This document shows, piece by piece, positions 740-20,483 of a stretch of 20,900 nt of DNA. Source of the stretch: a virus. The notes beneath the pieces were generated by a model. The model saw only the letters and a list, made by a program, of their open reading frames with translations, made no database searches and had not been told where the DNA came from. The DNA is taken from positions 1-20,900 of the IMG/VR virus record IMGVR_UViG_3300042556_002100. One strand, 5' to 3'. Positions within the stretch are counted from its first letter, which is position 1, and each line of letters begins with the position of its first letter. Made by a program: the position numbers and the translations under genes.

Positions 740-901
740 TCAGCTCCGGCGAAAGACGTTGATGACACCGACGAGCGCGATGGCGGCGGCGATGATGGCC
801 TCGTTGTGCTCTGGCGAGAGTTGCCAACCGAGAGCGCCAGCCAGCAGAATAAGACCGCGCCACGTCGAGGACTGACCGAGTTGATCGAGCAAGTAGTTCA
901 T
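740..901 (-). CDS. Small two-helix membrane protein, candidate holin (53 aa)
   Basis: The product is 53 residues, starting MNYLLDQLGQSSTWRG and ending INVFRRS. It has two hydrophobic segments, about residues 15-28 (GLILLAGALGWQLS) and 35-50 (AIIAAAIALVGVINVF), joined by a short charged turn (PEHNE) and ending in two arginines. Size, two membrane spans and position just before a lipoprotein and an endolysin fit a class II-type holin, which makes the inner-membrane lesion that releases or activates the endolysin. No specific holin family is recognised. The TTTGACA motif lies 13 nt before its ATG, in the short gap after the preceding stop. Confidence 0.65.
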   Translation of the reverse strand: MNYLLDQLGQSSTWRGLILLAGALGWQLSPEHNEAIIAAAIALVGVINVFRRS

Positions 902-914
902 GCCCTCGGCGGCA

Positions 915-921
915 TGTCAAA
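915..921 (-). promoter_or_regulatory. TTTGACA start-site motif before the holin gene
   Basis: On the coding strand TTTGACA ends 13 nt before the ATG at 901. It is intergenic, lying after the TGA of the TM/coiled-coil gene. It is one of ten copies placed the same way (see findings). Confidence 0.6.
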
Positions 922-924
922 GGG

Positions 925-1107
925 TCAGCGTGTGTTGCGGAGGTGGTGCTCCCAGAGCGTCTCGACGCGCTCTTGCACCTGCTCGAGGTTGGCCACGCGA
1001 GAGTCCACTTTTGCCAAGAACCAAATGAGCGTGCCGGCCTGCATAATGAGGACGATGGACACGCTGGCCAGCCACGACTTGACCCAGTTGCTCTCACGCT
1101 CGCTCAT
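925..1107 (-). CDS. Single-span membrane protein with coiled coil (60 aa), candidate inner-membrane spanin
   Basis: The ATG at 1107 overlaps the stop of the upstream gene (ATGA), with GGGAGG about 10 nt before it; a longer in-frame start would add only six residues. The 60-residue product has a polar N-terminus (MSERESNWVK), one membrane span at about 12-32 and then a helix with heptad-like hydrophobics (V34, V38, L41, V44, V48, L51). This N-in, single-span, coiled-coil plan is that of i-spanins, and a lipoprotein candidate lies two genes on. It is shorter than a typical Rz-like protein, so another lysis-accessory role is possible. The spanin assignment is inferred from topology and context, not from a recognised family. 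Confidence 0.6.
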   Translation of the reverse strand: MSERESNWVKSWLASVSIVLIMQAGTLIWFLAKVDSRVANLEQVQERVETLWEHHLRNTR

Positions 1108-1487
1108 AATTCCAGCGCCTCCCATGCTGCGAGCAACCCGTCGCGCAGTGCGTCCGGCAGGCTCTCGCTGCTGGCGTTAAAAGTGCGGGAGCCCAGCGGG
1201 GCATGCACGCTCACAGCGGCGTTGAGCACGCTGCGAAACTCCACCGGCACCGACACCTCATTGCCCTCGTCGTCCGTGGTTGTTGCGTAGGCCGTCGCCA
1301 CGTTGCCCGCCTCCTCGATCACAACATCGGCCAGCGTCTCGCCCTCGGCGAGTTGTGCCGTGAGCCAAGCCAGCAGCCCTTCCGCCACTGCGGCGAGGTC
1401 GCCGACCAGCGAGACGGCATCGTCGGCGGAGTAGCCGGATCGCTCGACGTAGCGGGTCAGCGTAGAGTTGGCAAGGCGGAGGGTCAT
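1104..1487 (-). CDS. Hypothetical protein (127 aa) between fibre and lysis genes
   Basis: The start is the ATG at 1487 (MTLRLANSTLTRY), which overlaps the fibre gene's stop as ATGA. The longer in-frame extension upstream is an Arg-rich shadow of the fibre gene. The 127-residue product is acidic and rich in Ala, Leu, Val, Glu and Asp. A helical first half (AVSLVGDLAAVAEGLLAWLTAQLAEGETLADVVIEEAGN) is followed by a segment with beta character (ATTTDDEGNEVSVPVEF) and a helical C-terminus (DALRDGLLAAWEALEL). It has no signal peptide or membrane span. Its TGA overlaps the next start. I do not recognise the family. Fibre chaperone or small tail accessory protein are possible roles by position only. 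Confidence 0.75.
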   Translation of the reverse strand: MTLRLANSTLTRYVERSGYSADDAVSLVGDLAAVAEGLLAWLTAQLAEGETLADVVIEEAGNVATAYATTTDDEGNEVSVPVEFRSVLNAAVSVHAPLGSRTFNASSESLPDALRDGLLAAWEALEL

Positions 1488-2743
1488 CGGGCGACGGTCT
1501 GGTTCCACGCGACGAGATCCACGTCGCACGTTCTGGCGGCGCTGGTTTGCGTGCCGACGATCACATAAAATAAACCGGCGTTGCTGGAGGTCGGCACGTT
1601 CGTTGAAGAGGTCAGCCAATTTCCGCCATTGAGCCGAAACTCAATCGTGCCAGCCGTGACACAGCGCATTTCAAATTTGTAAAATGTGTCGGCGACCGGC
1701 GCGGTGCCGCTATCCACTAATGTAGTCAGAGTTGAAGACGCGTATGCCGTACCGTCGTTTTTCGTGACGAACTGCCAGTTTGTATCCACGCCCGCCTTGA
1801 ACCGCCAACCGATGAGGCGCGAATTAAAGTCGAGGTCGAGCGGGTTCGCGGAAAATCCCGCCGACACGGTCACGTTGGTCACGTCGGGCAACGCCATAAT
1901 GGCCAAGGCGTGCCATCCCGCGACCGTCGCCGGGTTGCTGGCGCCGAAAATGCCGTTTGCCGTGTAAATTCGCAAATAGTTGCCAGCGGTCGCTCCTGTC
2001 GTTAGCCGCAAAGCTGTGTGGTGCGGCATAACACCAACTGTAGAGCGCTCTACCAGTGTTCCCCCGCCCGCGTTGCTCGTCCCCCAGCCCGTCTCGCCAA
2101 TGATGCCGTTGGTGCGTCCGCCGTTGAAAAAATCGTCGCGAAACCGGATTATCCGCGTGTCGAGAAAGGCGTCGTCGAGGAGTTGGCGAGTTATAATTGA
2201 ACTCGAACTCGCCGCCGTCTGGTTCGGGGCGGTCGAATTGGTGCCGTTGAGGGTGAGGTTTTCGGTGAGCGAATTGGCCAGCGTCGTCCAAGAGCCCGAG
2301 ACGCGGGCCACGGTGACCGGCCAGCGCGAGGCCGCGTAGGCCACACCGTTGACGGTGACTGTCCCCGAGGCCACCACGACTTGAAACATCTCGCCGTCGT
2401 TGCCGCTGGCGGGATTCGTAACGGTGAACGTGCCGCTGGCCACGTAGCGTCCGCCGCTGACGGCAGTGAAGGCGGTCGTCTTCGCCTCCCACAGGGCATT
2501 TTTGAGGTTGCCGAGGGTAAGAGTTTTCAGCGCATCGCTGGCCGCGCTGTCGAGGATGGCAAATTTGTCGGCATCGACGGGCGTATTTTTGCTGCCTGTG
2601 ACGCCGGAAAGCGTGCCTGCCGGTCCCTGCGGGCCAGCGACCGCGACCTCGAGCACCTCTGGTTGGTTCGGCGGGGTGACCGGGACGACAACCTCCACCA
2701 CATCGGTTTGCGTCGGCGCAACGATTTCGATGACGTCGCTCAT
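1484..2743 (-). CDS. Tail fibre / receptor-binding candidate with short collagen-like segment (419 aa)
   Basis: The N-terminus (MSDVIEIVAPTQTDVVEVVVPVTPP) is followed by a short collagen-like GPQGPAG at about residues 37-43. A helical or linker part comes next (ALKTLTLGNLKNALWEAKTTAF), then a beta-rich body full of Gly, Thr, Asn and Ser. The C-terminal half, from about residue 195 (DTRIIRFRDDFFNGG) to the end, reads like a single jelly-roll or lectin-type domain, as in phage and bacterial adhesins (FKAGVDTNWQFV, VADTFYKFEMR, GTIEFRLNGG). An attachment linker, Gly-X-Y segment and C-terminal binding domain make up the usual layout of a host-recognition fibre. Binding target and fold are inferred. 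No Shine-Dalgarno sequence is visible; the ATG is 4 nt after the upstream TAA. Confidence 0.75.
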   Translation of the reverse strand: MSDVIEIVAPTQTDVVEVVVPVTPPNQPEVLEVAVAGPQGPAGTLSGVTGSKNTPVDADKFAILDSAASDALKTLTLGNLKNALWEAKTTAFTAVSGGRYVASGTFTVTNPASGNDGEMFQVVVASGTVTVNGVAYAASRWPVTVARVSGSWTTLANSLTENLTLNGTNSTAPNQTAASSSSIITRQLLDDAFLDTRIIRFRDDFFNGGRTNGIIGETGWGTSNAGGGTLVERSTVGVMPHHTALRLTTGATAGNYLRIYTANGIFGASNPATVAGWHALAIMALPDVTNVTVSAGFSANPLDLDFNSRLIGWRFKAGVDTNWQFVTKNDGTAYASSTLTTLVDSGTAPVADTFYKFEMRCVTAGTIEFRLNGGNWLTSSTNVPTSSNAGLFYVIVGTQTSAARTCDVDLVAWNQTVAR

Positions 2744-2749
2744 GGTAAA

Positions 2750-3535
2750 TTATTGGGTGACTTCGGGCGAGACGATCACTTTGCCTGCGATGAGGCGGCG
2801 CACGGTGGAACCGACGGTCAGTTCCAAGTCCCACACGTAGGTTCCCGCCGCCAAGTCGGCAGTGTCCTCGGCGGAGATGTCGAGGGTGATGGTGCCGTCC
2901 TCGCCGCCCAGCGTGATTCCTCCATTTTCGGTCGTCAGGTCGAATAAAGTTGTCTCGCTTGTGTAGGTGGCGCGCGCCTGCGCTTGCGCGGTGTAGCTCG
3001 TGAGGTCCACCTCGGTGAGCGGGTCGCCGGTTTTCCACACGAATTCCTGCGAGAACGTCGAGCCTTGCAGGATGGTCAGGCGCACGTTGGCCACGCCGTC
3101 GCTGCCGGGGGATTGCGCGCGGATGACGTCGTTGTAAACGGTCGCCGCGCACGGCAACGTGGAAGAAACCTGCGTGGAAACCGTCCATTCAAGTTCGCAA
3201 ATGGCCGTGACAGATTCCTCGTCGTCCTGCGGGAAGAGGTCGTCCAGCTCGCTGCTGTTGACGGAAAGGGTGAATGTGTAAATCGTGCTGGTGGTGCTTC
3301 CGCTTTTCGTCCACGACCCGGCATAAGCGAGATAATCGCCGTCATAGCTGCCGGCCGCCTTGATGGCGAATCGGCCGGTCGCGCCCGCTCCAAGCTCTTG
3401 CACGGTGCCGTTGCGCACAAATTGCACTTCGAGCGGCAGCGCATCGCGGCGGGTGAAAAATAATTGTGTCACCCGCTGCAAAAGCGTGGGCGACACGACA
3501 AAAGCTCGAGAGTCGAGGTCAACGTAAACGCGCAT
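2750..3535 (-). CDS. Tail/baseplate-associated protein with two beta domains (261 aa)
   Basis: The product has two beta-rich halves. Residues 1-130 include SRAFVVSPTLLQRVTQLFFTRRD and a large Ser/Thr-rich strand region. From about residue 150 (VRLTILQGSTFSQEFVWKTG) to the end there is a pattern common in phage tail proteins and in the N-terminal domain of BppU-type upper baseplate proteins: QG-tf---f-w then VDLTSYTAQAQAR, then GTYVWDLEL and a closing GKVIVSPEVTQ. It probably links the tail tip or baseplate to the adjacent fibre. The domain match is from memory of the pattern. The ATG at 3535 follows a TTTGACA copy by 16 nt and is preceded by a second possible ATG within the gap. Confidence 0.7.
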   Translation of the reverse strand: MRVYVDLDSRAFVVSPTLLQRVTQLFFTRRDALPLEVQFVRNGTVQELGAGATGRFAIKAAGSYDGDYLAYAGSWTKSGSTTSTIYTFTLSVNSSELDDLFPQDDEESVTAICELEWTVSTQVSSTLPCAATVYNDVIRAQSPGSDGVANVRLTILQGSTFSQEFVWKTGDPLTEVDLTSYTAQAQARATYTSETTLFDLTTENGGITLGGEDGTITLDISAEDTADLAAGTYVWDLELTVGSTVRRLIAGKVIVSPEVTQ

Positions 3536-3551
3536 GATGACTTTGCCGCCA

Positions 3552-3558
3552 TGTCAAA
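3552..3558 (-). promoter_or_regulatory. TTTGACA start-site motif before the 261-aa tail gene
   Basis: This intergenic copy ends 16 nt before the ATG at 3535. It lies downstream of the TAG of the glycosyltransferase-like gene, so it carries no protein-coding constraint here. Confidence 0.6.
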
Positions 3559-3567
3559 CATGCGAGG

Positions 3568-4608
3568 CTACACCGGCATCCAAGGTTGCTGCCGCACGCG
3601 GAGGTGGCCGCGATACTCGCCCTCGGTCTCATGGAACGCGCGATAATGGATCACCGGCGGAGCATCGGCGGGTGCGTCTTTTGGCCGGTGTTTCACGTGG
3701 TCGGCAGCCGTGTGCGGTATAGCGGCGATGCGTAGCCCGGCGGGGTGCCAGCGGTGCCAGCACAAAAAGAGGTCTTGCGTGCCGCGACCGTCGTAGCCCT
3801 CGAAGGTGGCCAAAGCCAGCGCGCGGGCGGAAAGCAGCGTGCAGCCGAGCCCGCACCAATCCGACGGCACGATGGCCCCGCGACCGATGCCGGGATAGGC
3901 AAAGTCCATCCAACCGCGACGACGCCAGCCGTGCTTAGCCGTGACCTCCCACACGTTGCCCTCCGGCGGGCAGCGTTTCACGCGCTCATGCAGTCGGTGC
4001 AGGCGTTTGCCTTCGCGCTCGCTGATCTGCGGGTCGGTGCAGTCTTTGAGCCGCGCGCGGCAAGCGGCCAAGGCACGGACAAGACGCGGCGGCAGCTTGC
4101 GTTCCTTTTCGGTGAAGTCCTCGGCAATGGGATTCTGCGGGGTGCCAAAGCCGCCCAAGAAAAGACCGTTCGGATACGTGACGGCCGCGATGTCGTAGTA
4201 GGGTGAACCGTCCTCCGTCGGCATTTGCAAGGTCCACTCCGCCACGCGCAGAGCGTCGGCCGGGACAAGCGTGTCGGACTCGACCGACCACAGCATGCTG
4301 GCACGAATCTTTCGCGCAGCGGCAAAGGCCGCACCCTGCAACGCGGCGATGCGCATTTGCGCGGGCTCTTTGTAATCTTTGCCCTCCGGCCCGCCGTCCT
4401 CGAGCGGTAGCTGCACGGCTTGGATGCGCCAGCCCTCCGGCAGCTCCACCCGCGCCGCCTCGATGGCCTCTTTTGCTTCCTTGCTCTGGTCCGTGGCGAG
4501 AATGAAGTGCGCCTCGGCGTGGTGTCCGGCGGCAGCGGCAATGCGGCGCAAAAACTGCGGCCAACAATGAAAATAAGCCTTGGTTGCGTATGTAGCTATC
4601 GCCAGCAC
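3568..4608 (-). CDS. Glycosyltransferase-like protein (GT-A fold, 346 aa) in the tail-fibre module
   Basis: The start is GTG at 4608 (MLAIATYATKAYFHCWPQFLRR), 16 nt after a TTTGACA copy. Features fit a GT-A glycosyltransferase: an N-terminal strand/helix start, HFILATD at about 34-40, a DxD-like acidic triplet at 110-112 in MLWSVESDTLVP, PNGLFLGGFG near residue 145, a Cys-rich WCGLGCTLL segment and GYDGRGTQDLFLCWHRW. The last of these resembles the acidic acceptor/metal region of GT2 enzymes. Such enzymes move a sugar from a nucleotide-sugar to an acceptor. It lies directly after the Ser/Thr-rich 609-residue tail protein and before fibre genes, so modification of tail proteins is a natural guess. 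The family assignment is by motif only; a non-catalytic sugar-binding relative is possible. Confidence 0.6.
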   Translation of the reverse strand: MLAIATYATKAYFHCWPQFLRRIAAAAGHHAEAHFILATDQSKEAKEAIEAARVELPEGWRIQAVQLPLEDGGPEGKDYKEPAQMRIAALQGAAFAAARKIRASMLWSVESDTLVPADALRVAEWTLQMPTEDGSPYYDIAAVTYPNGLFLGGFGTPQNPIAEDFTEKERKLPPRLVRALAACRARLKDCTDPQISEREGKRLHRLHERVKRCPPEGNVWEVTAKHGWRRRGWMDFAYPGIGRGAIVPSDWCGLGCTLLSARALALATFEGYDGRGTQDLFLCWHRWHPAGLRIAAIPHTAADHVKHRPKDAPADAPPVIHYRAFHETEGEYRGHLRVRQQPWMPV

Positions 4609-4624
4609 TCAGCCGCGCGGCAGA

Positions 4625-4631
4625 TGTCAAA
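4625..4631 (-). promoter_or_regulatory. TTTGACA start-site motif before the tail-module glycosyltransferase gene
   Basis: This copy ends 16 nt before the GTG at 4608. The TGA within it is the stop codon of the 609-residue gene (CTT TGA CAT). Confidence 0.6.
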
Positions 4632-7061: not shown

Positions 7062-7066
7062 GGTTG

Positions 7067-7759: not shown

Positions 7760-7762
7760 AGC

Positions 7763-9364: not shown

Positions 9365-9366
9365 GA

Positions 9367-10044
9367 CTAAGTTGCTTCAAATCCTGCGCCCTTTGCGGCC
9401 TTGTGTATAAGAAAATTGACGCGACTCATCATTGTTCTGGCGCGATACCGAAGCGCGTCGTCTACGCGCCTTTCGACCAAAAACCTTGCGCCGGGATAAA
9501 CCACGTTGTTGGAAAGCTCGATTGTCAGTTTTTCTCCGTTAAGCAATACGCGCCCCTTTCCTGCCGCGCTGTGTTTAGAAATCCAGACAGGAAGGTTGAT
9601 TCCGAGTGAAGCTGCGGCGGCTTTCCAGCCCGCCGCCATATAGCCGACGCGCGCTTGCATTTTCTTTTTATATTCGGCCAAGGTGGCAATTCTGATTCGT
9701 CTATCGGTCTTACCCTTGTTTAGGTTAAACCTTACTCGTCCTCGCTTGTCTCGAAACCTTTTGTGAAATGTTTCCGGTTTAGCAGTTCCTCTTTTGCTTT
9801 GACGAAAAATTTTTGCCAAATCGTTTGCGACGGTTTTTTTGCCACCAGACAGATTGTATGTCGGATTGATCTCGCCCTTTTTGTTTTCTTTCTCTTTGTT
9901 CGGAGGGGTAAGCTGGACAATGGCTTTGACCAATCGCTTTCCCTCGTCTTTTAAGTTGTTAGCAACGGACTTGCGACTCGTCGCAAAAAACGCTTTCAGC
10001 GCTTGCTGAAATTCGGCGTCATCTACGTCAAAAGTCGCTTTCAT
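9367..10044 (-). CDS. HK97 gp10-like / minor tail protein (225 aa), low-GC gene
   Basis: The N-terminus reads MKATFDVDDAEFQQALKAFFATSRKSVANNLKDEGKRLVKAIVQLTPPN. This is the pattern of gp10-like and gpZ-like proteins: a first strand, a long helix, then an (A/V)xxxTP motif. Unlike the usual 110-190 residues it is 225 long, with a Lys/Arg-rich middle (KEKENKKGEINP, RRIRIATLAEYKKKMQARVG) and a beta/helix C-terminus. Base use differs sharply from neighbours: lines 9,721-9,840 are about 39% GC by hand count. Its placement between the chaperones and the tape measure is unusual, as these normally adjoin. Its ATG overlaps the stop of the frameshifted chaperone and is 17 nt after a TTTGACA copy. The gp10-like call is moderate. 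Confidence 0.6.
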   Translation of the reverse strand: MKATFDVDDAEFQQALKAFFATSRKSVANNLKDEGKRLVKAIVQLTPPNKEKENKKGEINPTYNLSGGKKTVANDLAKIFRQSKRGTAKPETFHKRFRDKRGRVRFNLNKGKTDRRIRIATLAEYKKKMQARVGYMAAGWKAAAASLGINLPVWISKHSAAGKGRVLLNGEKLTIELSNNVVYPGARFLVERRVDDALRYRARTMMSRVNFLIHKAAKGAGFEAT

Positions 10045-10684
10045 TCTGTCTCAAAGCGCTCTGTCAAAGCTGCGAGGCGATCGAAGGCCGCAGAGTTTTC
10101 AGCAGACGGCGGACCGGGTGGTACGGTCCAGACATCGTTGGCGCGCAAAGCGCAGTGTTGGTATTGCAGGAGGCGCGCCAGCGGGAGTTCCCAGAGAATG
10201 TAATGCTCGGGCCAGCCGGTTTCTCGCGCCAGCGTGAAGGCAAAGGTTGCGATCCACGCTGGCTCAATTAGTTTCCCGGCGGCGATTCCTGGCGTTGCCC
10301 GCTGCTGGGCTTCTCGACGATCTCGACTTGCGCGGCGGCCGCCATATCGCTGACGCGTTGAATCTCGGCCATGACTTCCGGCAGGATATTGAGCGGGATG
10401 GAAAGCTGGTAGCGCAGCAACTCGTCTTCGATCTTCTGCGGGTCGCGGATGACTTGCAGGATGCGGTCGATGGGCTCGCAGTGCGCCCAAAGAAAACCGG
10501 ACACCTGACGCATTTGCTCGATCTGGTCGATGGGCTGCGCGGGCGCCTCGCCGGTAAATTGCGTGAGGCCCAGCTTTTTGCACAGCGGCAAGCTGCCGAC
10601 GGTGAAGGGGCGCAGCTTGAAGTCGCCGATTTCTTTGAGGCGGGGCTCGATAAAAGCATCTTCGGTTAGAGTAGTTTTAGCCAT
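10041..10684 (-). CDS. Tail assembly chaperone, -1 frameshift fusion (gpGT-like, about 214 aa)
   Basis: This is the long product formed when ribosomes slip back one base at 10,271-10,277. It shares residues 1-138 with the short form, then continues LIEPAWIATFAFTLARETGWPEHYILWELPLARLLQ to ERFETE. The extension has no start of its own; the ORF that runs further upstream in this frame is an Arg/His-rich shadow. By analogy with lambda gpG/gpGT, the short and long forms in a set ratio bind the tape measure and recruit tube subunits, and are absent from the virion. The signals (GGGAAAC, immediate TAA, 7-nt spacer, 9-bp stem) are all visible. Lambda uses the closely similar GGGAAAG. Confidence 0.85.
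10062..10068 (-). promoter_or_regulatory. TTTGACA start-site motif before the gp10-like gene
   Basis: This copy ends 17 nt before the ATG at 10,044. It lies inside the frameshift extension, read as GCT TTG ACA (A-L-T). A variant, TTTGAGACA, follows closer to the start. Confidence 0.55.
10228..10263 (-). promoter_or_regulatory. Frameshift-stimulating stem-loop
   Basis: In the mRNA, GCCAGCGUG and CACGCUGGC form a perfect 9-bp stem with an 18-nt loop. The stem begins 7 nt after the slippery heptamer, the spacing expected for a -1 frameshift stimulator. A pseudoknot with downstream sequence was not evaluated. Confidence 0.75.
10268..10684 (-). CDS. Tail assembly chaperone, short form (gpG-like, 138 aa)
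   Basis: The start is ATG at 10,684 (MAKTTLTEDAFIEPRLKEIGDFKLRPFTVGSLPLCKKLG). A good Shine-Dalgarno, GAGGAA, sits 8 nt before it, inside the end of the 147-residue gene. The protein has a beta start and then an acidic, helical body (IDQIEQMRQVSGFLWAHCEPIDRILQVIRDPQKIEDELLRYQ), typical of the G-type chaperone. The C-terminal tail KPSSGQRQESPPGN runs directly into the slippery site. Gene order (tube-like proteins, chaperone, tape measure two genes on) supports the role. The long in-frame ORF starting near 10,852 is an overlap with the previous gene and is not the start. Confidence 0.85.
   Translation of the reverse strand: MAKTTLTEDAFIEPRLKEIGDFKLRPFTVGSLPLCKKLGLTQFTGEAPAQPIDQIEQMRQVSGFLWAHCEPIDRILQVIRDPQKIEDELLRYQLSIPLNILPEVMAEIQRVSDMAAAAQVEIVEKPSSGQRQESPPGN
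10271..10277 (-). promoter_or_regulatory. -1 slippery heptamer GGGAAAC
   Basis: In the zero frame the codons are CCG GGA AAC TAA, which fit the X-XXY-YYZ rule as G GGA AAC. Slipping back one base re-pairs both tRNAs on GGG AAA and continues with CTA ATT GAG. The zero-frame stop is the very next codon. Confidence 0.85.
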
Positions 10685-11765: not shown

Positions 11766-11772
11766 TGTCAAA
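11766..11772 (-). promoter_or_regulatory. TTTGACA start-site motif before the first tube-like gene
   Basis: This copy ends 14 nt before the ATG at 11,751. The TGA inside it is the stop of the tail-terminator-like gene (ATT TGA CAC). Confidence 0.6.
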
Positions 11773-12193: not shown

Positions 12194-12537
12194 GGCGTGC
12201 CGACCTCCAAAATCCACTCTTGGGCAAGGGGGGTGAAGTTTTGACGCACGGAGAATATGCGGTAGTTGCGACCTTCAATGCTGATAGCGCCTTTGGTCTG
12301 CGGGGGGGATGGTTTCCAGTTGGTGAAAGGCGCATCGGCGGCATCGGCCTTGGCAATGCGGACGACAAATTCCACCGGCTGGCTAAACCCGCCCGACTCG
12401 AGGTTAAGCTCCGGCTCGCCGGTGCTGACAACCGCGCGAAACGAGCGGCCGTCAATGACCACGGTTGAACCGAAAATGTCGGCCAGTTTTGCGGCTAAGT
12501 GGTCGCGGCAAAATGCGGCAACGGCAGCTGAGGTCAT
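12190..12537 (-). CDS. Head-tail connector/stopper-like protein (115 aa, gpFII-like)
   Basis: The protein begins MTSAAVAAFCRDHLAAKLADIFGSTVVIDGRSFRAVVSTGEPE. An N-terminal helix is followed by strands, a loop (KADAADAPFTNWKPSPPQTKGAISIEGRNYRIF) and a last strand pair (FTPLAQEWILEVGTP). The layout is that of gpFII-type head-tail attachment proteins, which sit below the portal and seal the packaged head: helix, FDxx-like strand, long loop, then '(G)xxYRI' and a closing strand. The length, about 115, fits. In lambda this gene follows the capsid gene; here two glycosyltransferase genes intervene. Its ATG overlaps the upstream stop (ATATGA) and follows a TTTGACA copy by 13 nt. Confidence 0.6.
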   Translation of the reverse strand: MTSAAVAAFCRDHLAAKLADIFGSTVVIDGRSFRAVVSTGEPELNLESGGFSQPVEFVVRIAKADAADAPFTNWKPSPPQTKGAISIEGRNYRIFSVRQNFTPLAQEWILEVGTP

Positions 12538-13118
12538 ATCGGCCGGCCAGTGTCAAAGGTCGGGTCACCTTTTTTGCTCACGTAATCGTAAAAATAGACC
12601 GGTTCGTCCCCGCTCCATTCCTCTGTTTTAAGGTGCGGTAAAATCCCCAGGGCAAAGCGGAAATCCTCTCCCCACATGAGATCGGGAAAACGGCTTTGCA
12701 GGGCGATGGTGCGGCGCAGCGGGCAAAGGTGGTGCGGCGTGCGGTCTTGGCCGTGCCAGACAAAGTTTTCTCTAAATCGCAGGCTGTGGCGAAAGATAGG
12801 CGATGGGTGCCAGTCTTGGCCGTCCATGGTGACGTGCATGGTGATCCCTACGCAATCGGGGCGTGACGCGAGGCAAGGCACGATGCGGTCCAAGTAGTCG
12901 GCTGACACCATGTCGTCATCATCGACAAACGCGATATAGTCCGCCTCGGCCGACTCGATCATGCGCTGGCGTTTTGCCCCGATGGTCCCCTCGCCTGCGT
13001 CGATCAAATAGCTGGCGGACGGATGCTGGGCCAGTTGCGGTTGCAGTGCTTTGAGCAAACGATCCAACATGGCCGCGCGGGACGGCATGGTCGGAATGAG
13101 GATTTGCAGCGTTACCAT
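12534..13118 (-). CDS. GT2-type glycosyltransferase (194 aa)
   Basis: This is a compact GT-A enzyme. The N-terminal strand VTLQILIPTMPSRAAMLDRLLKAL is followed by GAKRQRMIESAEADYIAFVDDDDMVSADYLDRI. The aspartate run at 66-69 matches the metal/nucleotide-sugar DxD site of family 2. Later, LMWGEDFRFALGI near residue 148 supplies the (E/D)D acceptor-side acidic pair typical of GT2. It lacks a membrane segment, so it is cytoplasmic. Its start overlaps the stop of the larger glycosyltransferase (ATGGTAA) and its end overlaps the stopper-like gene. Being locked between head and connector genes, it should be expressed late, together with virion proteins. Sugar and acceptor cannot be read from sequence. 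Confidence 0.82.
   Translation of the reverse strand: MVTLQILIPTMPSRAAMLDRLLKALQPQLAQHPSASYLIDAGEGTIGAKRQRMIESAEADYIAFVDDDDMVSADYLDRIVPCLASRPDCVGITMHVTMDGQDWHPSPIFRHSLRFRENFVWHGQDRTPHHLCPLRRTIALQSRFPDLMWGEDFRFALGILPHLKTEEWSGDEPVYFYDYVSKKGDPTFDTGRPI
12551..12557 (-). promoter_or_regulatory. TTTGACA start-site motif before the stopper-like gene
   Basis: This copy ends 13 nt before the ATG at 12,537. It lies inside the glycosyltransferase gene, read as TTT GAC ACT (F-D-T). Confidence 0.6.
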
Positions 13119-14818
13119 CCGGCGGCGACGGCATCGGGAGCCACCCGTTCAAAGACCGCGCGGCCTCGGCGCTCGGCTTCGGGGTTTTGCTGGCGCATAT
13201 ATTCGGCATCCGATTTTGCGCCGGTAAAAATCGGGTGGTCGTGATAAAAGTTGATGTGCCGCGCGTCCTTGACCACGCCTTCCTTGTAAGCGCGCCACGA
13301 CCATTCGGTGTCGCTCCAATACCCGTCGAACTCGGGGTTAAACAGCCACGGCCGCCCCGCCCAGTAATGCCAGTTGAAGCAGGGCAGAACCATGATCTTG
13401 TCGCGGCGGAAGCCATCGAAAACGTGCAGGACGGTCGGCTTGCCTTTGTGCGGTTCCATAGCTTGCACGATTTGCTCGTCCCAGCCGTGCGGCGGGTAGC
13501 AATCGTCTTGCGCCATGAGAACGATCTTGGCCGACTCGGCGGCGGCTTTGGCTGCGACGTTGTAGTTCGCTACGGCGGAGGAATAACCGGCTGGCACGGC
13601 CTCGCTGACAGCGTGCGGATAGTGCTTGATGCCTTCGACCACGGTGGTGTCGCCTTCGTTGACCCCAAACCAGTAGGAAACAAGCTCCGGGCGCGCGGCG
13701 CGCTCAAGGTAAAGCTCGCGCATTTTGATGGCTTGCTCCGGGCGGCAAGTCGGATGCCCAACGGCAATGCGCGGGCGGTAGCGTTTGCGATATTCGCGGC
13801 GGGCTTTGTCGGCTTCTTTGGTGCGTCCCGACTTGGCCAGCGCGGCACACTTCAATTCATGCGCTCGCCAACCGTAGAGGCTGGCGTCGTGAATCCATGA
13901 GGCATCGTCGGGATCGTCGTGCGCTTCCATGCTCTTGCACCACGCCACGGCTTTTGCGGCATCCCCACGGGCCAGATGCACCTTGGCAAGCTCGGCGTAG
14001 CCTTCCCTGCGGTGCGGCATGAGTCGCACGGCCTCAAGCAACGGGCGCTCGGCCTCCTCGATGTCTTTGAGCCAGCGTCCTATCGAAAGGTAAGCCAGAT
14101 ATTTTTCTTCTTTGGCCAGATCGTCGCGGCCGGTGGCCACCACGGCGGCGGTTAACGCGCCGGTGATGTCACCTTGCATTTCACACTCGCGGAAAAGGAA
14201 CCACCATTCCCGCCCGGTGCGCTTGTCCTCGGGGATGGCGGTTAAAATGCGCTTGTTGCGTTCGACGCTGCCGCGCTTGTTGACGGCCGGCATGTGGATG
14301 ACTTGCAACTCTTGGCACCATGCGGCATGCGTATCGGGCTTCACCTCGATGTCCTCGTGGATGCAGTTGATCCAGCGGTCGTAAACTTCCCGATGCACAA
14401 GACGGATGCGGCGTGCGTAGCTGCCCTGCATGGATGTCACATAAGGGGCGTAGACGGCCTGTTTCGCATCCAGCTTGCCTGCTCGTATCTCGGATAGCAC
14501 TTGCGCGCCCGTAGGCGCCAGCAGGTCGTCGCAATCGGCCCACATGAGCCATTCGGCATCGGCGGGAGCCAAGGCAAAGGTCTGGTTGCGCGCGGCGGCA
14601 AAGTTGTCCACGTGCGGCCAGTCGTTGCCCGGTGCGTTGAAATACTCGCCGGTAATGCAACCGCGCGCGCGGGCAATGTCCAAGGTGCGGTCGGGCATCT
14701 GGTTGCCTACCGCGCGAACGACGCTGATCGAATCTACGTGCGGCTGGAAGCTGTCGAGGAAGCGGTTGATGTAGTCCGCTTCGTTCCCACAAATGATCCC
14801 AAGGTGAATTTTTGCCAC
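13112..14818 (-). CDS. Two-domain glycosyltransferase with central helical repeats (568 aa)
   Basis: The start is GTG at 14,818. Residues 1-130 form a GT2-type domain (IHLGIICGNEADYINRFLDSF) with D-rich motif WADCDDLL at 93-100, resembling the SunS/beta-1,4-glucosyltransferase group. Residues about 205-345 are helical with TPR-like character (LAKVHLARGDAAKAVAWCK). Residues about 348-568 form a second GT-A domain: RIAVGHPTCRP, a QDD site at 437-439 in VLMAQDDCYPPHGW, and FDGYWSDTEWSWRAYKEG as the likely acceptor-side acidic region. Two catalytic domains could build a disaccharide or act in turn. The gene lies between the capsid gene and head-tail connector genes. No good Shine-Dalgarno is visible and a terminator lies just upstream, so expression may be low. 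Substrate unknown; a virion protein is a reasonable inference. Confidence 0.82.
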   Translation of the reverse strand: MAKIHLGIICGNEADYINRFLDSFQPHVDSISVVRAVGNQMPDRTLDIARARGCITGEYFNAPGNDWPHVDNFAAARNQTFALAPADAEWLMWADCDDLLAPTGAQVLSEIRAGKLDAKQAVYAPYVTSMQGSYARRIRLVHREVYDRWINCIHEDIEVKPDTHAAWCQELQVIHMPAVNKRGSVERNKRILTAIPEDKRTGREWWFLFRECEMQGDITGALTAAVVATGRDDLAKEEKYLAYLSIGRWLKDIEEAERPLLEAVRLMPHRREGYAELAKVHLARGDAAKAVAWCKSMEAHDDPDDASWIHDASLYGWRAHELKCAALAKSGRTKEADKARREYRKRYRPRIAVGHPTCRPEQAIKMRELYLERAARPELVSYWFGVNEGDTTVVEGIKHYPHAVSEAVPAGYSSAVANYNVAAKAAAESAKIVLMAQDDCYPPHGWDEQIVQAMEPHKGKPTVLHVFDGFRRDKIMVLPCFNWHYWAGRPWLFNPEFDGYWSDTEWSWRAYKEGVVKDARHINFYHDHPIFTGAKSDAEYMRQQNPEAERRGRAVFERVAPDAVAAGW

Positions 14819-14824
14819 TGGTTC

Positions 14825-14864: not shown

Positions 14865-14883
14865 GGGTCGAAACCCTAATTGT

Positions 14884-14919: not shown

Positions 14920-14934
14920 GATGAACACACAGAC

Positions 14935-15786
14935 TTAGATGATGAGCGCCATCGTGCCGCTGGTGACACCGGCTCCCGCACCGAACATGACTTCGATGGA
15001 GGCGTTGACTTGGCGGTTGTTGGTGCTGCCCCAGACGTTCCAGTAAACGGAGAGTCCGAGTTGATCCAGAGTCACCACTTGGTTGCTGATCTGGAACTGC
15101 GAGGAGACGGCAGGGTCGATGGCCGGTTGAGCCGAGGCCACGCACACCGCTTCACGCGAGCAGGCGAAGCCGTCGAGGCCCGCGACCGCGCCGCTGAAAC
15201 TGTTGGCGTAGTAGATGCCCTGGTCGAACCCGTAGGCTCCGTTCTGCAACGGGAGGAAGTCCGCGTTGGTCGGGATGAGCGCCGAGTAGATCGAGGGAGT
15301 GACCACCAAGCCCTTGTTTGGGGACTTGGAGAGGGCGCTCCACAGCGTAGCCAAGTGGCCGCTGCCGGGAGTGATCGTGGTCGTGGTGACCGAGGCCGCC
15401 CCGTAGTTGACCGTGGTGATCGGCGTGATGGCGATGGACCAGAGTTTGTCGGCCAAGGCATCGACGTTGATCTTGATGAGGTTTTCGAGGCGATGGCCGA
15501 GGGCGAGGTCGCTTTGGCTAATGCCGAAAAACTGAACAACGTGATCCAATGTGACGGTGGCTTTACCCACGGTCACGTCCGAGCCGGGCTCGAAGTTGGT
15601 GGGGTTGACCGCTGTGGCGGCTGTCGCCGACACAATGGGAACTTGGATGGTGTCCTTGGGCTTTTTGACCTCGTTGGAGAAGTCAGTTGTGAAGAGTCGC
15701 AGAGGGGCGAGGCGGTTAGCCAAGACCGTCTGGACTTGCTGCGAGATGGTGGAGACCACCAGTCCCGAATCGAATGCGTTAGCCAT
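14935..15786 (-). CDS. Major capsid protein (283 aa)
   Basis: This is the shell subunit of the phage head. The sequence begins MANAFDSGLVVSTISQQVQTVLANRLAPLRLFTTDFSNEVKKPKDTIQVPIVS, the usual opening of P22/HK97-fold coat proteins: an N-arm helix, then a 'kp-GDTI-vP' strand. DVTVGKATVTLDHVVQFFGISQSDLALG and a long spine helix (LENLIKINVDALADKLWSIAI) follow. The A-domain comes after (NKGLVVTPSIYSALIP, GAYGFDQGIYYAN), with an ending of FGAGAGVTSGTMALII. At 283 residues it is on the small side. It lies just after the protease/scaffold gene and is followed by a strong terminator, as expected for the most abundant product. Its start has a C/A-rich leader and no Shine-Dalgarno sequence. Confidence 0.88.
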   Translation of the reverse strand: MANAFDSGLVVSTISQQVQTVLANRLAPLRLFTTDFSNEVKKPKDTIQVPIVSATAATAVNPTNFEPGSDVTVGKATVTLDHVVQFFGISQSDLALGHRLENLIKINVDALADKLWSIAITPITTVNYGAASVTTTTITPGSGHLATLWSALSKSPNKGLVVTPSIYSALIPTNADFLPLQNGAYGFDQGIYYANSFSGAVAGLDGFACSREAVCVASAQPAIDPAVSSQFQISNQVVTLDQLGLSVYWNVWGSTNNRQVNASIEVMFGAGAGVTSGTMALII

Positions 15787-15830
15787 ATTTTAGTTGGTTT
15801 GTTTGGGGTTGGTTTTGTTTGGGGGATTCC
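15787..15830 (-). promoter_or_regulatory. C/A-rich, G-poor leader of the capsid gene
   Basis: The 44-nt gap before the capsid ATG reads, on the coding strand, as repeated CCAA/CAAA units (for example ACCAACCCCAAACAAACC) ending CTAAAAT before ATG. The 38 bases next to the ATG contain no G at all, so no Shine-Dalgarno is possible there and little structure can form. It may be an unstructured translation enhancer for the most abundant protein. No promoter elements are convincing. Confidence 0.5.
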
Positions 15831-16340
15831 TCAGCTGGTGGCCTTGGAAAGTCGTTCGCGGGCGGCCCAGATGGCGCGCTTGTGGGAGGCGTAAAGTTTG
15901 CCGGCGGCGGCGTAGTCCTTGCGCTCGATGGCGTCCATCCACTCGGCGACGGGATCGGACTTGTCCTCTTTGCTCATGGACGGGACAACCGAGGCGGAGG
16001 CAACGCCCATGCCGCGCTCGAGGGCGGCATGCGCTTCTTTGAGCTTGGAAAATTCGGCGGAGGCTTTTTCGGCCTCGCTTTCACGCGCGGCAACTTCGGC
16101 TTTGAGCGCGTTGATCTCCTCGTCCTTGCTGGCGCTTTCGGCGATGAGGCGCTCAACCTCTTGCTTGAGGGCGGCGATCTCTTCGGCGGATGCGTCGGCC
16201 TGCGGCTCCTCGGCAACGACGGCGGGTGCGGCGGGTGAATCGGTGACCGACTCCACGACCGGCGCGGCTTCGGCTTCAATGGCGGGGGCTTCCGAGGCGA
16301 TCACCTCGGCTTCGGACACGACGGAATTTTTCACGGTCAT
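15831..16340 (-). CDS. Nested capsid scaffold protein (169 aa) from an internal start in the protease gene
   Basis: An in-frame ATG at 16,340 (residue 199 of the protease) would give MTVKNSVVSEAEVIASEAPAIEAEAAPVVES to the shared C-terminus. The product is acidic, Ala/Glu-rich and strongly coiled-coil (IAALKQEVERLIAESASKDEEINALKAEVAARESEAEKA), ending in a basic helix (ERKDYAAAGKLYASHKRAIWAARERLSKATS). That is the make-up of phage scaffolds such as lambda Nu3, which is likewise an internal in-frame product of the protease gene C. A TTTGACA copy ends 14 nt before this ATG, the same placement as at nine other gene starts. Independent translation is inferred from these two facts; no Shine-Dalgarno sequence supports it. 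Confidence 0.6.
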   Translation of the reverse strand: MTVKNSVVSEAEVIASEAPAIEAEAAPVVESVTDSPAAPAVVAEEPQADASAEEIAALKQEVERLIAESASKDEEINALKAEVAARESEAEKASAEFSKLKEAHAALERGMGVASASVVPSMSKEDKSDPVAEWMDAIERKDYAAAGKLYASHKRAIWAARERLSKATS

Positions 16341-16934
16341 GGCCTTGCGGAAATTGTCAAACCGCGCGCGCATATCGGAGGCGCTGGCGGCGGCGGGGAT
16401 GCCGTCTTCGATGGCGTCGATAAACCCAAGCGCGGCGGCTTCGGTGGCATCGAGCCAGGTCTCTTCGTCCATCAGCTTGGCGATGGCTTTTTCCTCCATG
16501 CCGGTTTTCTTTTGGTAAGCGCGGACAAGGTTGGACTTCATGGTGTCCAACAGGTCGGCTTGCTTGCGGAGGTCTTCGGCCTCACCGGCGGCCATGGTCC
16601 ACGGGTTGTGGATCATCAGCAGGGCGTTGTCGGCCATGTAAACGGGGTCGCCCGCCATGGCGATGACGCTGGCCATGCTCGCGGCCAAGGCGTCGATGTG
16701 AACGGTCAAGCCGCCTTCGTGGCGGGTGAGCGCGTTGTAGATCGCGCTGCCTTCGATGATCTCGCCACCGGGGGAGTTGAGGCGCAGATGGATATGCTGG
16801 CCTTTGTAGCGTTTGAGTTCGGCGATGAACTGCTTTGCGCCGACGCCCCAAGCGCCGATCTCGTCGTAGATAGAAAGTTCAACCTCGCCGCTTTCGTCGG
16901 CAATGTTCTTAAACGCATACCATTTTCGGGCCAT
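15831..16934 (-). CDS. Head maturation protease, ClpP-type, fused to scaffold domain (367 aa)
   Basis: This is a serine protease of the ClpP/S49 type that trims scaffold and capsid proteins in the prohead. Seen: LNSPGGEIIEGSAIYNAL (53-70), the nucleophile Ser86 in ALAASMAS, His109 in ALLMIHNPW, and a likely Asp162 in ETWLDATEA, which together form the triad. The protease domain covers about 1-185. The remaining 180 residues are Ala/Glu-rich coiled coil with a basic end, a scaffold domain that may also be made alone from residue 199. The start is ATG at 16,934, after a TTTGACA copy by 13 nt; that copy holds the portal stop. Order portal-protease-capsid is standard. Confidence 0.9.
   Translation of the reverse strand: MARKWYAFKNIADESGEVELSIYDEIGAWGVGAKQFIAELKRYKGQHIHLRLNSPGGEIIEGSAIYNALTRHEGGLTVHIDALAASMASVIAMAGDPVYMADNALLMIHNPWTMAAGEAEDLRKQADLLDTMKSNLVRAYQKKTGMEEKAIAKLMDEETWLDATEAAALGFIDAIEDGIPAAASASDMRARFDNFRKAMTVKNSVVSEAEVIASEAPAIEAEAAPVVESVTDSPAAPAVVAEEPQADASAEEIAALKQEVERLIAESASKDEEINALKAEVAARESEAEKASAEFSKLKEAHAALERGMGVASASVVPSMSKEDKSDPVAEWMDAIERKDYAAAGKLYASHKRAIWAARERLSKATS
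16355..16361 (-). promoter_or_regulatory. TTTGACA motif before the internal scaffold start
   Basis: Inside the protease gene, read as TTT GAC AAT (F-D-N), this copy ends 14 nt before the in-frame ATG at 16,340. It is the only copy not at a conventional gene boundary and supports a nested gene. Confidence 0.55.
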
Positions 16935-16947
16935 GCTTGGCCGCTTG

Positions 16948-16954
16948 TGTCAAA
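16948..16954 (-). promoter_or_regulatory. TTTGACA start-site motif before the protease gene
   Basis: This copy ends 13 nt before the ATG at 16,934 and contains the portal stop (GTT TGA CAC). Similarity to the portal copy extends further: both read ACGTTTGACACA, two variable bases, CG, then CC and AGC just before the start codon. Confidence 0.6.
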
Positions 16955-18452
16955 CGTCGGAGGTGAGTGCGGCTTCGCCTTCCGCATCGTCAGCCGGTGC
17001 GGCGGACGGCGGAATCGGCGAGCCGGGCGCTGGGGGGAAAACATCGGTGACGGCCAAGCCTGCGGCTTCGCACTTTTGCTTGCGGCGAACGGCAGCGGCA
17101 ATGGCCGCGTCTTCCTCGGCTTCTTCGTCCAGACCGTGCATCTCGGCAAAGCGGCGGGTGGACATGGCCCCGGTGCGGACAATCTCAAGGAGGGCTTTGG
17201 TGTCGCGCCCGAAGTCCACCGTGGCGCGGGCGGGGGTGATGAAATCTACCCTCCACCAATCCTCGCGCAACGGAAGACGACCGGCTTGGATCTCCGACCA
17301 CACCCAGTATTTCCAAAAGCGACGGCAGAATTGATTGACCAGCCAGTCTTGCAACTCGGAGAAAAACACCTGGGCGTCGGCCAGCACATAACGCGTATTG
17401 GCCCCGCCGATGCCGGCCACGCTCCAGAGCATCTCGGGCGAAAGGCCGATGCCCCATGAGATGTCGCGGGCGAGGAAATCGAGGAACGCTTGAAAGTTAT
17501 TGCCGGGGTGCTCGTTCTTAAACTGTTGGAGCTTGGTGCCGGGCGGCAACTGCATGACACCGCTCTGGCCATAGAGCTTGTCGATGGTGACGCTGCCCGA
17601 TCCTTGGTCTTGCTTTTTGAGTGCGGCGCCCATGCCGATCTGCATGGCGTCGGGCGACTCGATGATAAAAGCGGGTTGGCTGGCGAGTTTGAACGTCTGC
17701 TTGGTGAAGGCGACGATGTCGGCCATGTCGTGCAAATGCAGGGCCGCACGGGACAACCAAGACGGGCTGCGGGTGTAGCCGATGCGCGCGGGGCGGCGGA
17801 AGTGCAGGATGTCGTCGGCTGATACGTCGGTGAATTTGCTGCGGTCTTCGCTCGTAAGCAGGCGGTATTGCGTGGGCTTGCCGTATTTATCGGAGCGCAC
17901 GCCGTCTTGCCATTCATCCTGATTAAGGCCGGTCGTAGCGTTGCCGACCGACTCCGCGCCGATGAAACGCACGAGCGCGCGCCCGTTGTCGCTTTTGACG
18001 AATTGGGCAAAGAAATCGCCGTCGATGGCGACATGGCGAACGATGAAATTTTGCGCCTCGTAGAAGTTGACCTGTCCTGCCGCGTCGAAGCCGAACGCCT
18101 CGCGCCCACAGCTATCCTCAAAAAGTTCCTCGGCTTGCTTGTTCCATGCTTCGTCGGAGGTGCGGGCGGCGGGGATGATGCCGGTGCCACAGGTGTAGCG
18201 AGCCACGCCATCCACCGCGCGGGCAGCGAGCCCGACGTTGTTATAGAGCCAGCGCGCTTTGCGCATGATGTTGGTGCGCGTGCCGCTCTGGAACTCCTGC
18301 CGAGGCTCGACCGTCGGCATGTAAATGAGCGTCCGCCCCGGCTGGTAAAGCTCGGCAGCTTCAAAGGCGGCATTTTTGGCCGCGCTTTTCTTGGGTCGCC
18401 CCGCGTTCGGGCGATACCCGCCGCGCTTTGATTTTGCTTTGATTTCCGCCAC
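16950..18452 (-). CDS. Portal protein, lambda type (500 aa)
   Basis: This is the dodecameric ring at the head vertex through which DNA enters and leaves. Recognisable lambda-portal features are TRTNIMRKARWLYNNVGLAARAVDGVARYTCGTGI (about 58-92), FYEAQNFIVRHVAIDGDFFAQFV, RYSR-like regions replaced here by DDILHFRRPARIGYTRSPSWLSRAALHLHDMADI, and a C-terminal FLARDISWGIGLSPEMLWSVAGIGGANTRYVLADAQVFFSELQDWLVNQF. The N-terminus carries a basic GGYRPNAGRPKKS motif, an AT-hook-like element more often seen on small terminase subunits. The start is GTG at 18,452; there is no Shine-Dalgarno, but a TTTGACA copy lies 13 nt upstream. About 500 residues is the normal length. Confidence 0.92.
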   Translation of the reverse strand: MAEIKAKSKRGGYRPNAGRPKKSAAKNAAFEAAELYQPGRTLIYMPTVEPRQEFQSGTRTNIMRKARWLYNNVGLAARAVDGVARYTCGTGIIPAARTSDEAWNKQAEELFEDSCGREAFGFDAAGQVNFYEAQNFIVRHVAIDGDFFAQFVKSDNGRALVRFIGAESVGNATTGLNQDEWQDGVRSDKYGKPTQYRLLTSEDRSKFTDVSADDILHFRRPARIGYTRSPSWLSRAALHLHDMADIVAFTKQTFKLASQPAFIIESPDAMQIGMGAALKKQDQGSGSVTIDKLYGQSGVMQLPPGTKLQQFKNEHPGNNFQAFLDFLARDISWGIGLSPEMLWSVAGIGGANTRYVLADAQVFFSELQDWLVNQFCRRFWKYWVWSEIQAGRLPLREDWWRVDFITPARATVDFGRDTKALLEIVRTGAMSTRRFAEMHGLDEEAEEDAAIAAAVRRKQKCEAAGLAVTDVFPPAPGSPIPPSAAPADDAEGEAALTSDV

Positions 18453-18465
18453 GCTCGGGCGGATG

Positions 18466-18472
18466 TGTCAAA
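18466..18472 (-). promoter_or_regulatory. TTTGACA start-site motif before the portal gene
   Basis: This intergenic copy starts 2 nt after the adapter gene's TGA and ends 13 nt before the GTG at 18,452. The region down to the start codon closely resembles that before the protease gene. Confidence 0.6.
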
Positions 18473-18474
18473 CG

Positions 18475-18768
18475 TCAGAGCCGCGCGAGGGATTCGCTGT
18501 AATCGGCATAGACCATGCCCGCGCTGCGGACTTGGGTGGCCACAGTCGTGGGGTCGATCTGGGCAATCAAGTCTTCGACGATGTTGAGCATGTCGGCCTT
18601 GCTGTATCGCCGCGCCTGCCCGCTGGTGCTGCCGCCCTCAAATCCCGCGTTGGTGATGACCACTTCGCTGTCGGCGATCGTGTAAAGCTCGTCAGCAAGC
18701 TTTTTCAACTGCGATAGATTCTTTGTCCGCTTGAGATATTTGCGGATGCCGGCCAGTTCGGAGGTCAT
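18475..18768 (-). CDS. gpW-like head-tail joining protein (97 aa)
   Basis: This is a small helical protein between terminase and portal genes, the position of lambda W. It begins MTSELAGIRKYLKRTKNLSQLKKLADELYTIADSE. A central strand segment, VVITNAGFEGGSTSGQARRYSKADMLNIVEDLIAQID, has the Ser-rich, 'R-Y-S-(K/R)-x-D-L' pattern of gpW-like proteins. The C-terminus is DYSESLARL. Lambda gpW (68 residues) is shorter; the extra length is at both ends. It would bind the portal to complete the connector. The ATG overlaps the terminase stop (ACATGA), and a TTTGACA copy lies 14 nt upstream within the terminase gene. Confidence 0.7.
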   Translation of the reverse strand: MTSELAGIRKYLKRTKNLSQLKKLADELYTIADSEVVITNAGFEGGSTSGQARRYSKADMLNIVEDLIAQIDPTTVATQVRSAGMVYADYSESLARL

Positions 18769-20483
18769 GTCTCTGGGGCGGCTGTCAAAGGTTCGGGCTC
18801 GGCTTCCTCAAAGTGCGTGCGCATTACCCACCACGTGACAAGGTGGAGCTTGGTGCAGTCGCCGTAGTGGTCGCCTGCGACCTTCTTCCAGACTCGGCCT
18901 TTGGTCTTTTCGCTCTCGATGATCTTTTGCCCCATGTGGCCAAGCAAAAAGTCTTCACTGGCATCGCTGGGGAAGTGAATCAATGGCGGGGCTTTTTTGG
19001 CGATTCGCTCGATGTAAAGCGCGACCTTGGCCGAAAAGTCCACGTAGCGGTAAAGGACAAGGGTCGGATAGTCTTTTAAGTGCGAGGCGTCCCACGTTCC
19101 GGCCTGTGCTGCCGATCCCTTGGACGGAAAGAACAAGCCGCCCGACCGCGCGCACGTCGCATAAACGCGCTCGGTAAAGTCGCCGGAGTCAATCAATCCG
19201 CACATGACTCGGGCCGGATCGTCGCGCCCTTCCAGCGGCCATTCCATGCGAGAGGCAATGCCGATCAAATCTTCAATGGCAAAGGTCGTGCCGTATTCGA
19301 CGATGTAGCCTTCCCCTTGCGCTGTCCACGCCATGACCGACCAGTGTGTCTGCATTTGTCCTGGGTCGGCGCAAAATGTCACCAATGCCGGGGCAACCGG
19401 CATCTGGCCGCGTTTGTAAGATGGGTTGCGCAAAGCAACCACCGCATCGTCGCTCACATGCGCGGTTCGGTCTTCCCACCGCTGCGCCATGCGCTTTTGC
19501 AGGAATTGCTTGCGCGGTTCGCGGTCGCCGCGTTGCCACGCTTCTTCAGCTCTCACCCATTCGGCAGCGAGCTTGCCCCACCCAATCCACCACACGGCCA
19601 GCGCGTTCCAGTTGAAGGCCAACCGCCCGTTCATGCCGTCAGCCACTTTGATGTAATCGCTCGAGGCGGACAGCTGTCGGCGCGTTTCTGCCGTGTCTTC
19701 AAATCGGGCGTCGCACCCAGCGCAAAGCATGTGGGTTGTCGCGGCCAGCCGCTCCCAATCCATGCTTCCATCGGGCTTGCGTTCGCGTTCAAAGCGCACC
19801 ATCTCAAATCGCCACGGCTGGCGGCGCTGGCAATGCGGGCAACACCATTGCCACTGCCACTGCTCGCAAAGGTCTTGTGCTGCGTGAAAGTCGTCGCCCT
19901 CCTCGCCGCCCTGGCTCACCAAAACCACGCGGCTGTTCCAACGGTCATGAGTGCGACGGCGGAACTCTTCAACCATGCCATGCTTCCACCGCCACACTTC
20001 GTCACCGATACACCAGCGGATAGATTTTTCTTGCAGGTTGCTAATGTTGGCGCCGCCGATGAATAGCGGCATGTGGGGGAATAAAATTTCGGTTTTGCGT
20101 TTGGCGTGCCGATCTCGGGGAAAAAGCCTCGCCACGGGAGCCGATGCTTCAAACACTGGGCCAAGCCGCGTCTCAGCCCACTCTTTTGAAAGCTCGTCTG
20201 TCTGCCCCGCAAACAGTGACGGCCCCGGCGCTTGCGCTACCACCCATGCCAGCAAGCACTCAAAGAGAGTTGTTTTTCCCGACCCTACCGGGGCGCAAAT
20301 CACTACCTCGTCGTTGGTGTCTTTGGCGATTTCTTCCAGAGGGCGATTTAGCCACGGAGCCGTCTCCCTACGGAAGCGCGGGTTGCGGGCCGAGTGCGGC
20401 AGTTCGACGTTGGCTTCAATCCAATCGACAATGCCAAGGCGGTCTCCCGTCTTAACGCTTTCGCTAAATCCCGGTGCAAGCAT
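18765..20483 (-). CDS. Terminase large subunit, GpA family (572 aa)
   Basis: This is the ATP-driven DNA-packaging motor and end-cutting nuclease. Seen: Walker A-type APVGSGKT at 64-71; Walker B WCIGDE at 157-162; a motif III-like VVLVSQGG at 186-193; and a zinc-ribbon-like pair of CPHC (215-218) and CAGC (254-257), characteristic of GpA enzymes. The C-terminal nuclease half has VTFCADPGQMQTHWSVMAWT near 368-387 and GLIDSGDF with conserved aspartates. Length fits the family. The start chosen is ATG at 20,483, which overlaps the end of the small-subunit gene by 20 nt and has AAGGAG 11 nt before it. The stop overlaps the adapter start. Confidence 0.95.
   Translation of the reverse strand: MLAPGFSESVKTGDRLGIVDWIEANVELPHSARNPRFRRETAPWLNRPLEEIAKDTNDEVVICAPVGSGKTTLFECLLAWVVAQAPGPSLFAGQTDELSKEWAETRLGPVFEASAPVARLFPRDRHAKRKTEILFPHMPLFIGGANISNLQEKSIRWCIGDEVWRWKHGMVEEFRRRTHDRWNSRVVLVSQGGEEGDDFHAAQDLCEQWQWQWCCPHCQRRQPWRFEMVRFERERKPDGSMDWERLAATTHMLCAGCDARFEDTAETRRQLSASSDYIKVADGMNGRLAFNWNALAVWWIGWGKLAAEWVRAEEAWQRGDREPRKQFLQKRMAQRWEDRTAHVSDDAVVALRNPSYKRGQMPVAPALVTFCADPGQMQTHWSVMAWTAQGEGYIVEYGTTFAIEDLIGIASRMEWPLEGRDDPARVMCGLIDSGDFTERVYATCARSGGLFFPSKGSAAQAGTWDASHLKDYPTLVLYRYVDFSAKVALYIERIAKKAPPLIHFPSDASEDFLLGHMGQKIIESEKTKGRVWKKVAGDHYGDCTKLHLVTWWVMRTHFEEAEPEPLTAAPET
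18783..18789 (-). promoter_or_regulatory. TTTGACA start-site motif before the gpW-like gene
   Basis: This copy ends 14 nt before the ATG at 18,768. It lies inside the terminase gene, read as CCT TTG ACA (P-L-T). Confidence 0.6.

Follow-up and report, generated by a model that had tools for sequence, protein, structure and literature searches.

A TTTGACA heptamer before about ten genes in viruses of Verrucomicrobia, hosts that hardly use Shine-Dalgarno sequences, probably tells ribosomes where to begin

How starts are chosen in bacteria that keep the anti-Shine-Dalgarno (anti-SD) sequence yet hardly use Shine-Dalgarno (SD) sequences is an open question. Among viruses, T4 RegA and the coat proteins of RNA phages are phage proteins that read an RNA element beside a start codon, and the TURBS of caliciviruses is an upstream element at a restart site that pairs with 18S rRNA. 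Coupling of neighbouring genes is also described in bacterial termination-reinitiation (PMC6728339). Some Verrucomicrobia were listed in a survey among the SD-scarce organisms that retain CCUCC (PMC10783764), and in Bacteroidota non-SD starts have A-rich upstream regions, the anti-SD being held by bS21, bS18 and bS6 (PMC9976891, PMC3155529). The heptamer described here, locked to starts in many phages and absent from sampled host genes, offers a concrete and testable signal; among the papers searched, none describes a TTTGACA start motif.

The window, that is the whole stretch of DNA analysed, is a 20.9-kb virus record. The ten minus-strand TTTGACA coordinates given in a preliminary description all proved exact, the plus strand holds 0 copies, and the distances reported from the end of the heptamer to the start codon (13, 16, 16, 17, 14, 13, 14, 13, 13 and 14 nt, in order of coordinate) were correct. 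The sites and their state in orthologs are as follows.

18783..18789, minus strand: TTTGACA 14 nt before ATG 18768 of a 97-aa gene in the gpW position; TTGACA in 30/30 orthologs
18466..18472, minus strand: TTTGACA 13 nt before GTG 18452 of the portal gene; TTGACA in 32/32 orthologs
16948..16954, minus strand: TTTGACA 13 nt before ATG 16934 of the ClpP-type head protease gene; 26/26 orthologs
16355..16361, minus strand: TTTGACA within the protease gene, 14 nt before the internal in-frame ATG 16340; 12/12 orthologs
12551..12557, minus strand: TTTGACA 13 nt before ATG 12537 (115 aa); 14/14 orthologs
11766..11772, minus strand: TTTGACA 14 nt before ATG 11751 (103 aa); 10/16 orthologs
10062..10068, minus strand: TTTGACA 17 nt before ATG 10044 (225 aa); TTGACA in 12/17 orthologs
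4625..4631, minus strand: TTTGACA 16 nt before GTG 4608 (346 aa); TTGACA in 7/7 orthologs
3552..3558, minus strand: TTTGACA 16 nt before ATG 3535 (261 aa); 6/7 orthologs
915..921, minus strand: TTTGACA 13 nt before ATG 901 of a 53-aa protein; 8/8 orthologs

The TGA within the heptamer at 16948..16954 is the stop codon of the portal gene. A 36.4-kb IMG/VR contig, whose TerL and portal are identical to those of the window and which represents the same phage, carries the ten sites of the window plus one gene-strand copy away from any start and, on the opposite strand, a single copy with a GTG start 13 nt further on; 11 of its 12 gene-strand TTGACA copies sit 12-18 nt before a start.

The phage encodes a GpA-type TerL, a lambda-family portal, a ClpP-type head protease and a tape measure protein, and an integrase in the 36.4-kb contig; it is lambda-like in layout and probably temperate. 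Within the structural operon, two glycosyltransferase-like genes (13112-14818 and 12534-13118, minus strand) separate capsid from connector genes. The closest cultured TerL match is Akkermansia phage Moulinsart (29%), which has just three motif copies, 0 of them at a start; a TerL search of the genome collection and one more search of viral contigs each returned no match. Portal alignment found relatives in contigs of Opitutaceae, Rariglobus and Verrucomicrobiaceae metagenome-assembled genomes (MAGs), and the hosts are therefore most likely Verrucomicrobiota, an assignment based on MAG contigs. One such phage of Verrucomicrobiota type sits in a contig (L056, VERI01000017.1) of a MAG labelled Burkholderiaceae, a label that is probably a binning error.

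Across about 50 portal-related viral loci, in which gene starts outside annotated records were taken from a simple ORF caller, the gene strand holds 248 heptamer copies and the opposite strand 5, and their distances to starts peak at 13 (93), 14 (77) and 17 (30) nt. Counted over unique upstream regions, TTGACA is nearly all-or-none at orthologous starts, being complete for seven genes, partial for three (starts 11751, 10044 and 3535) and present in no ortholog upstream region of TerL, major capsid, tape measure and others. The preliminary description had allowed that relatives might lack the heptamer at orthologous starts or carry it just as often elsewhere; orthologous starts retain it, and most copies lie at starts. 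At spacings of 13 and 14 nt, TTTGACA, ATTGACA and GTTGACA occur 123, 26 and 6 times (backgrounds of 3.8, 0 and 0.4) and CTTGACA is also found; as these variants share one spacing, the core is TTGACA with a preferred T before it.

The motif is retained in divergent relatives with 41% portal identity and in prophage-like contigs of other Verrucomicrobiota, while many other portal-bearing Verrucomicrobiota loci lack it. It is used on both strands and outside late genes, including a few non-structural genes. A metallophosphoesterase-like gene on the strand opposite the late genes, for example, carries it in two loci (L146:2993-3733, plus strand; L134:11150-11896, minus strand). IMG/VR was also scanned with the pattern TTTGACA-N10-GGCATGA, which itself selects for the motif, and with a shifted control spacing. 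Among the matches listed, the match opens an ORF of at least 60 aa in 43 of 78 (26 of 78 for the control), and 12 loci have at least two start-linked copies (0 for the control); given the scope of the matches listed and the motif-selecting pattern, the scan speaks for breadth rather than frequency. The association between motif and starts is real and very strong.

Selection acts on nucleotides at the motif sites. Upstream of the gene in the gpW position, the motif persists whether TerL reads through it or has already ended. Within the protease gene, the two motif codons are TTT in 33/33 and GAC in 33/33 sequences, against the Phe column three residues on, which is split between TTT (18) and TTC (15); just 11 of 130 conserved columns of the protease alignment use a single codon throughout. 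ATG 16340 and its orthologs are in-frame internal starts that lie inside the head protease gene, 14-17 nt after the motif; in the window this ATG opens the following frame.

15831..16340, minus strand: nested in-frame ORF of 169 aa with an in-frame ATG and the motif conserved upstream

In lambda C/Nu3 a nested scaffold begins inside the head protease gene, and by this likeness the 169-aa ORF is a putative scaffold gene.

Presence of the motif follows the distance to the preceding gene. Of the starts with a stop codon 0-12 nt upstream, 1 carries the motif and 73 lack it; where the stop is 13-40 nt upstream, 99 carry it and 12 lack it; short gene overlaps are mixed (28 with, 39 without), and these counts include non-independent orthologs and in part reflect the room that an intergenic motif needs. 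In relatives, start 11751 is preceded by the motif or else, in most cases, by a stop codon only a few nt away. The simplest rule would be that the motif marks starts that are hard for a terminating ribosome to hand over to. The major capsid gene has a leader of another kind (15787-15830, minus strand, before ATG 15786), which is A/C-rich with almost no G, is conserved in relatives and contains neither SD nor heptamer; it is perhaps a different strong initiation region.

The spacer between heptamer and start codon has features of its own, as before the gene for the 53-aa protein.

902..914, minus strand: spacer TGCCGCCGAGGGC, hairpin-prone, with GGC directly before the ATG

Spacers have a GC content of 70% and usually end in GGC ahead of the start codon; GGC and the 13-nt spacing were both present before the IMG/VR scan, though adding its loci to the set partly selects for them. 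Hairpins are in excess in the spacers (p=1e-5), most strongly in a class of 50-60-aa genes (spacer energy −3.6 versus −1.8 kcal/mol for shuffled sequences), yet the small hairpin is not universal and some spacers do not fold. The heptamer itself has no special single-strandedness. In two loci (L014 near 4268 and L028 near 3295) it lies in the loop of a predicted hairpin (GCGTTCACC ... GGTGAACGC).

An initiation element that pairs with 16S rRNA, one version of an idea in the preliminary description, was rejected. Two 16S genes of the phylum, compared at the 3′ end, offer the heptamer no 7-mer or 6-mer complement even if two G-U pairs are allowed, and the duplex energy is −0.9 to −2.4 kcal/mol versus −11.6 kcal/mol for SD. 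The heptamer is thus not itself a Shine-Dalgarno sequence, having no 16S complement and a spacing of 13-17 nt rather than about 5-10 nt. The remark that heptamer-bearing starts lack SD is broadly right, but some spacers contain SD-like tetramers. SD is scarcely used in the two host MAGs sampled, at 14.5% of starts versus 12.8% of control positions in one and 11.9% versus 14.3% in the other. A host-wide start signal was rejected, as TTGACA was found at this position before no starts in the two MAGs, the motif is absent from host ribosomal-protein operons and, across 150 genomes of one family, its pattern is no commoner than the control; a search of 388 genomes of the phylum yielded a few scattered hits, partly repeats.

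That the copies arose by chance or as a protein-coding artefact is refuted by the conservation data and has next to no probability. Codons for Phe-Asp or Leu-Thr can account for parts of the heptamer, but no dinucleotide shuffle out of 100 gave as many as ten copies (mean 2.1, maximum 8, both strands together), and the sites fall in differing frames, over stop codons and between genes; strand bias and start-locked spacing are seen again in relatives, and the virus collection shows no such pattern at the shifted control spacing. A transcription element, namely a promoter near each start that depends on a phage or host factor and gives very short or leaderless mRNAs, is improbable as well. The core TTGACA is the consensus −35 hexamer of sigma-70, which speaks against a role in initiation of translation, and some sites directly follow strong terminator-like hairpins. 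However, −10-like hexamers (at least 4/6 matches, N16-18) are rarer at the sites (7 of 204) than in control windows (57 of 612), no second element was found within 60 nt upstream of the heptamer, the spacer is GC-rich, and avoidance of starts near a stop codon is hard to explain by transcription. A sigma-70 promoter with its −10 box inside the gene was rejected, TATAAT-like hexamers being rarer than in control windows. The transcription explanation is kept mainly because the hexamer is shared with the cultured Verrucomicrobia phage P8625 (NC_029047.1, L427), where four annotated starts have TTGACA exactly 30 nt upstream, three of them in an arrangement resembling leaderless promoters.

5412, 10736, 15558 and 22406 of NC_029047.1: TTGACA in P8625
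near 5423, 10750, 15573, 17515 and 9634 of NC_029047.1: dyads in P8625

As read from the sequence, these three TTGACA sites are followed by a GTAT-N11-ATAC dyad and a hexamer starting with TAT at N17, and are possibly leaderless promoters with a common operator. The annotated P8625 start at 9620 may be wrong. Less probable still is RNA processing, in which cleavage of the polycistronic mRNA close to the heptamer would release the start that follows. Some sites have strong hairpins or tRNA-like 3′ ends immediately before them, as would suit a cut, but strongly stable upstream folds (z below −2) occur at only about 16% of sites, a cut at the nested site would destroy the protease mRNA, and the spacing is tied to the start codon.

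The main rival, though unlikely, is a translational operator, in which a phage RNA-binding protein would bind TTTGACA plus hairpin, cover the start and so repress or time the genes together. The strict sequence with a hairpin beside the start codon, the absence of the motif from sampled host genes and the consideration that coupled genes would need no operator of their own all suit it. GC-rich hairpins beside a start usually inhibit translation, so that a repressor fits as well. On the other hand, the motif-bearing starts have no other consistent initiation signal, a few non-structural genes also carry the motif, and unfolded spacers are among those found; we know of no RegA- or coat-like reader protein for TTTGACA phages. 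Of the three readings offered by the preliminary description, the RNA-level initiation element fits best, with the regulatory target and the processing site standing as the rivals weighed above. We consider it somewhat better than an even bet that (T/a)TTGACA is an RNA-level signal promoting translation initiation at uncoupled starts. Action in RNA is favoured by the start-locked spacing, the internal and overlapping starts and the GC-rich, hairpin-prone spacer, and a role in initiation fits best with the nested start, the avoidance of coupled starts, the SD-scarce host and the missing promoter structure. Since there is no 16S pairing, a promoter is unlikely and the host hardly uses SD, the best guess is a recruiting signal read by a protein. 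We infer, from sequence patterns, action in RNA, activation rather than repression, and a protein reader.

The proposed element would consist of (T/a)TTGACA, then 13-17 nt often holding a 3-4-bp hairpin and ending in GGC, then ATG or GTG. It would act in transcripts from a broad group of Verrucomicrobiota tailed phages, aiding initiation at starts for which no ribosome can be counted on to terminate shortly before them. During initiation on the 30S subunit the heptamer would occupy about −20 to −14, close to the mRNA exit site, and the hairpin would take the usual place of the SD helix; a protein, phage-encoded or ribosomal, would read the heptamer. Host ribosomes alone may be unable to read the motif, as sampled host genes do not use it. 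Among ten non-structural proteins searched for a reader, no phage-encoded RNA polymerase, sigma factor or translation factor was recognised; the matches were SSB-like, exonuclease, methyltransferase, integrase, ParB-like and terminase-small-subunit-like. A broader statement, that this is a sequence-specific, non-SD bacterial initiation signal read by a protein near the 30S mRNA exit site in many phages of an SD-scarce phylum, is offered tentatively, as an idea with less than even prospects. These environmental phages form a large group whose annotation is poor, and the motif would improve the prediction of their starts, those of nested scaffold genes among them.

Compared with known systems, TTTGACA resembles the Shine-Dalgarno sequence in being short, at a fixed distance upstream of starts and present before many genes per genome, but it has no 16S complement and, at 13-17 nt, lies farther from the start. 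The non-SD contexts of Bacteroidota likewise belong to SD-scarce organisms that keep the anti-SD, yet they are a matter of composition whereas here a fixed heptamer is found, in phages and not in the sampled host genes; only the major capsid leader resembles the A-rich kind. With the sigma-70 −35 box and the P8625 sites it shares the hexamer TTGACA at a fixed distance from starts, but it lacks a −10 hexamer, has a GC-rich spacer and, relative to P8625, sits 17 nt nearer the start. The operators of T4 RegA and RNA-phage coat proteins are also RNA elements beside the start codons of phage genes, while the motif is stricter in primary sequence and spacing and is spread over many phages. Finally, as in TURBS and bacterial termination-reinitiation, an element lies upstream of a start and the choice is between coupled and uncoupled starts; TURBS differs in pairing with rRNA, to which TTTGACA has no complement, and TTTGACA is found at starts without close coupling.
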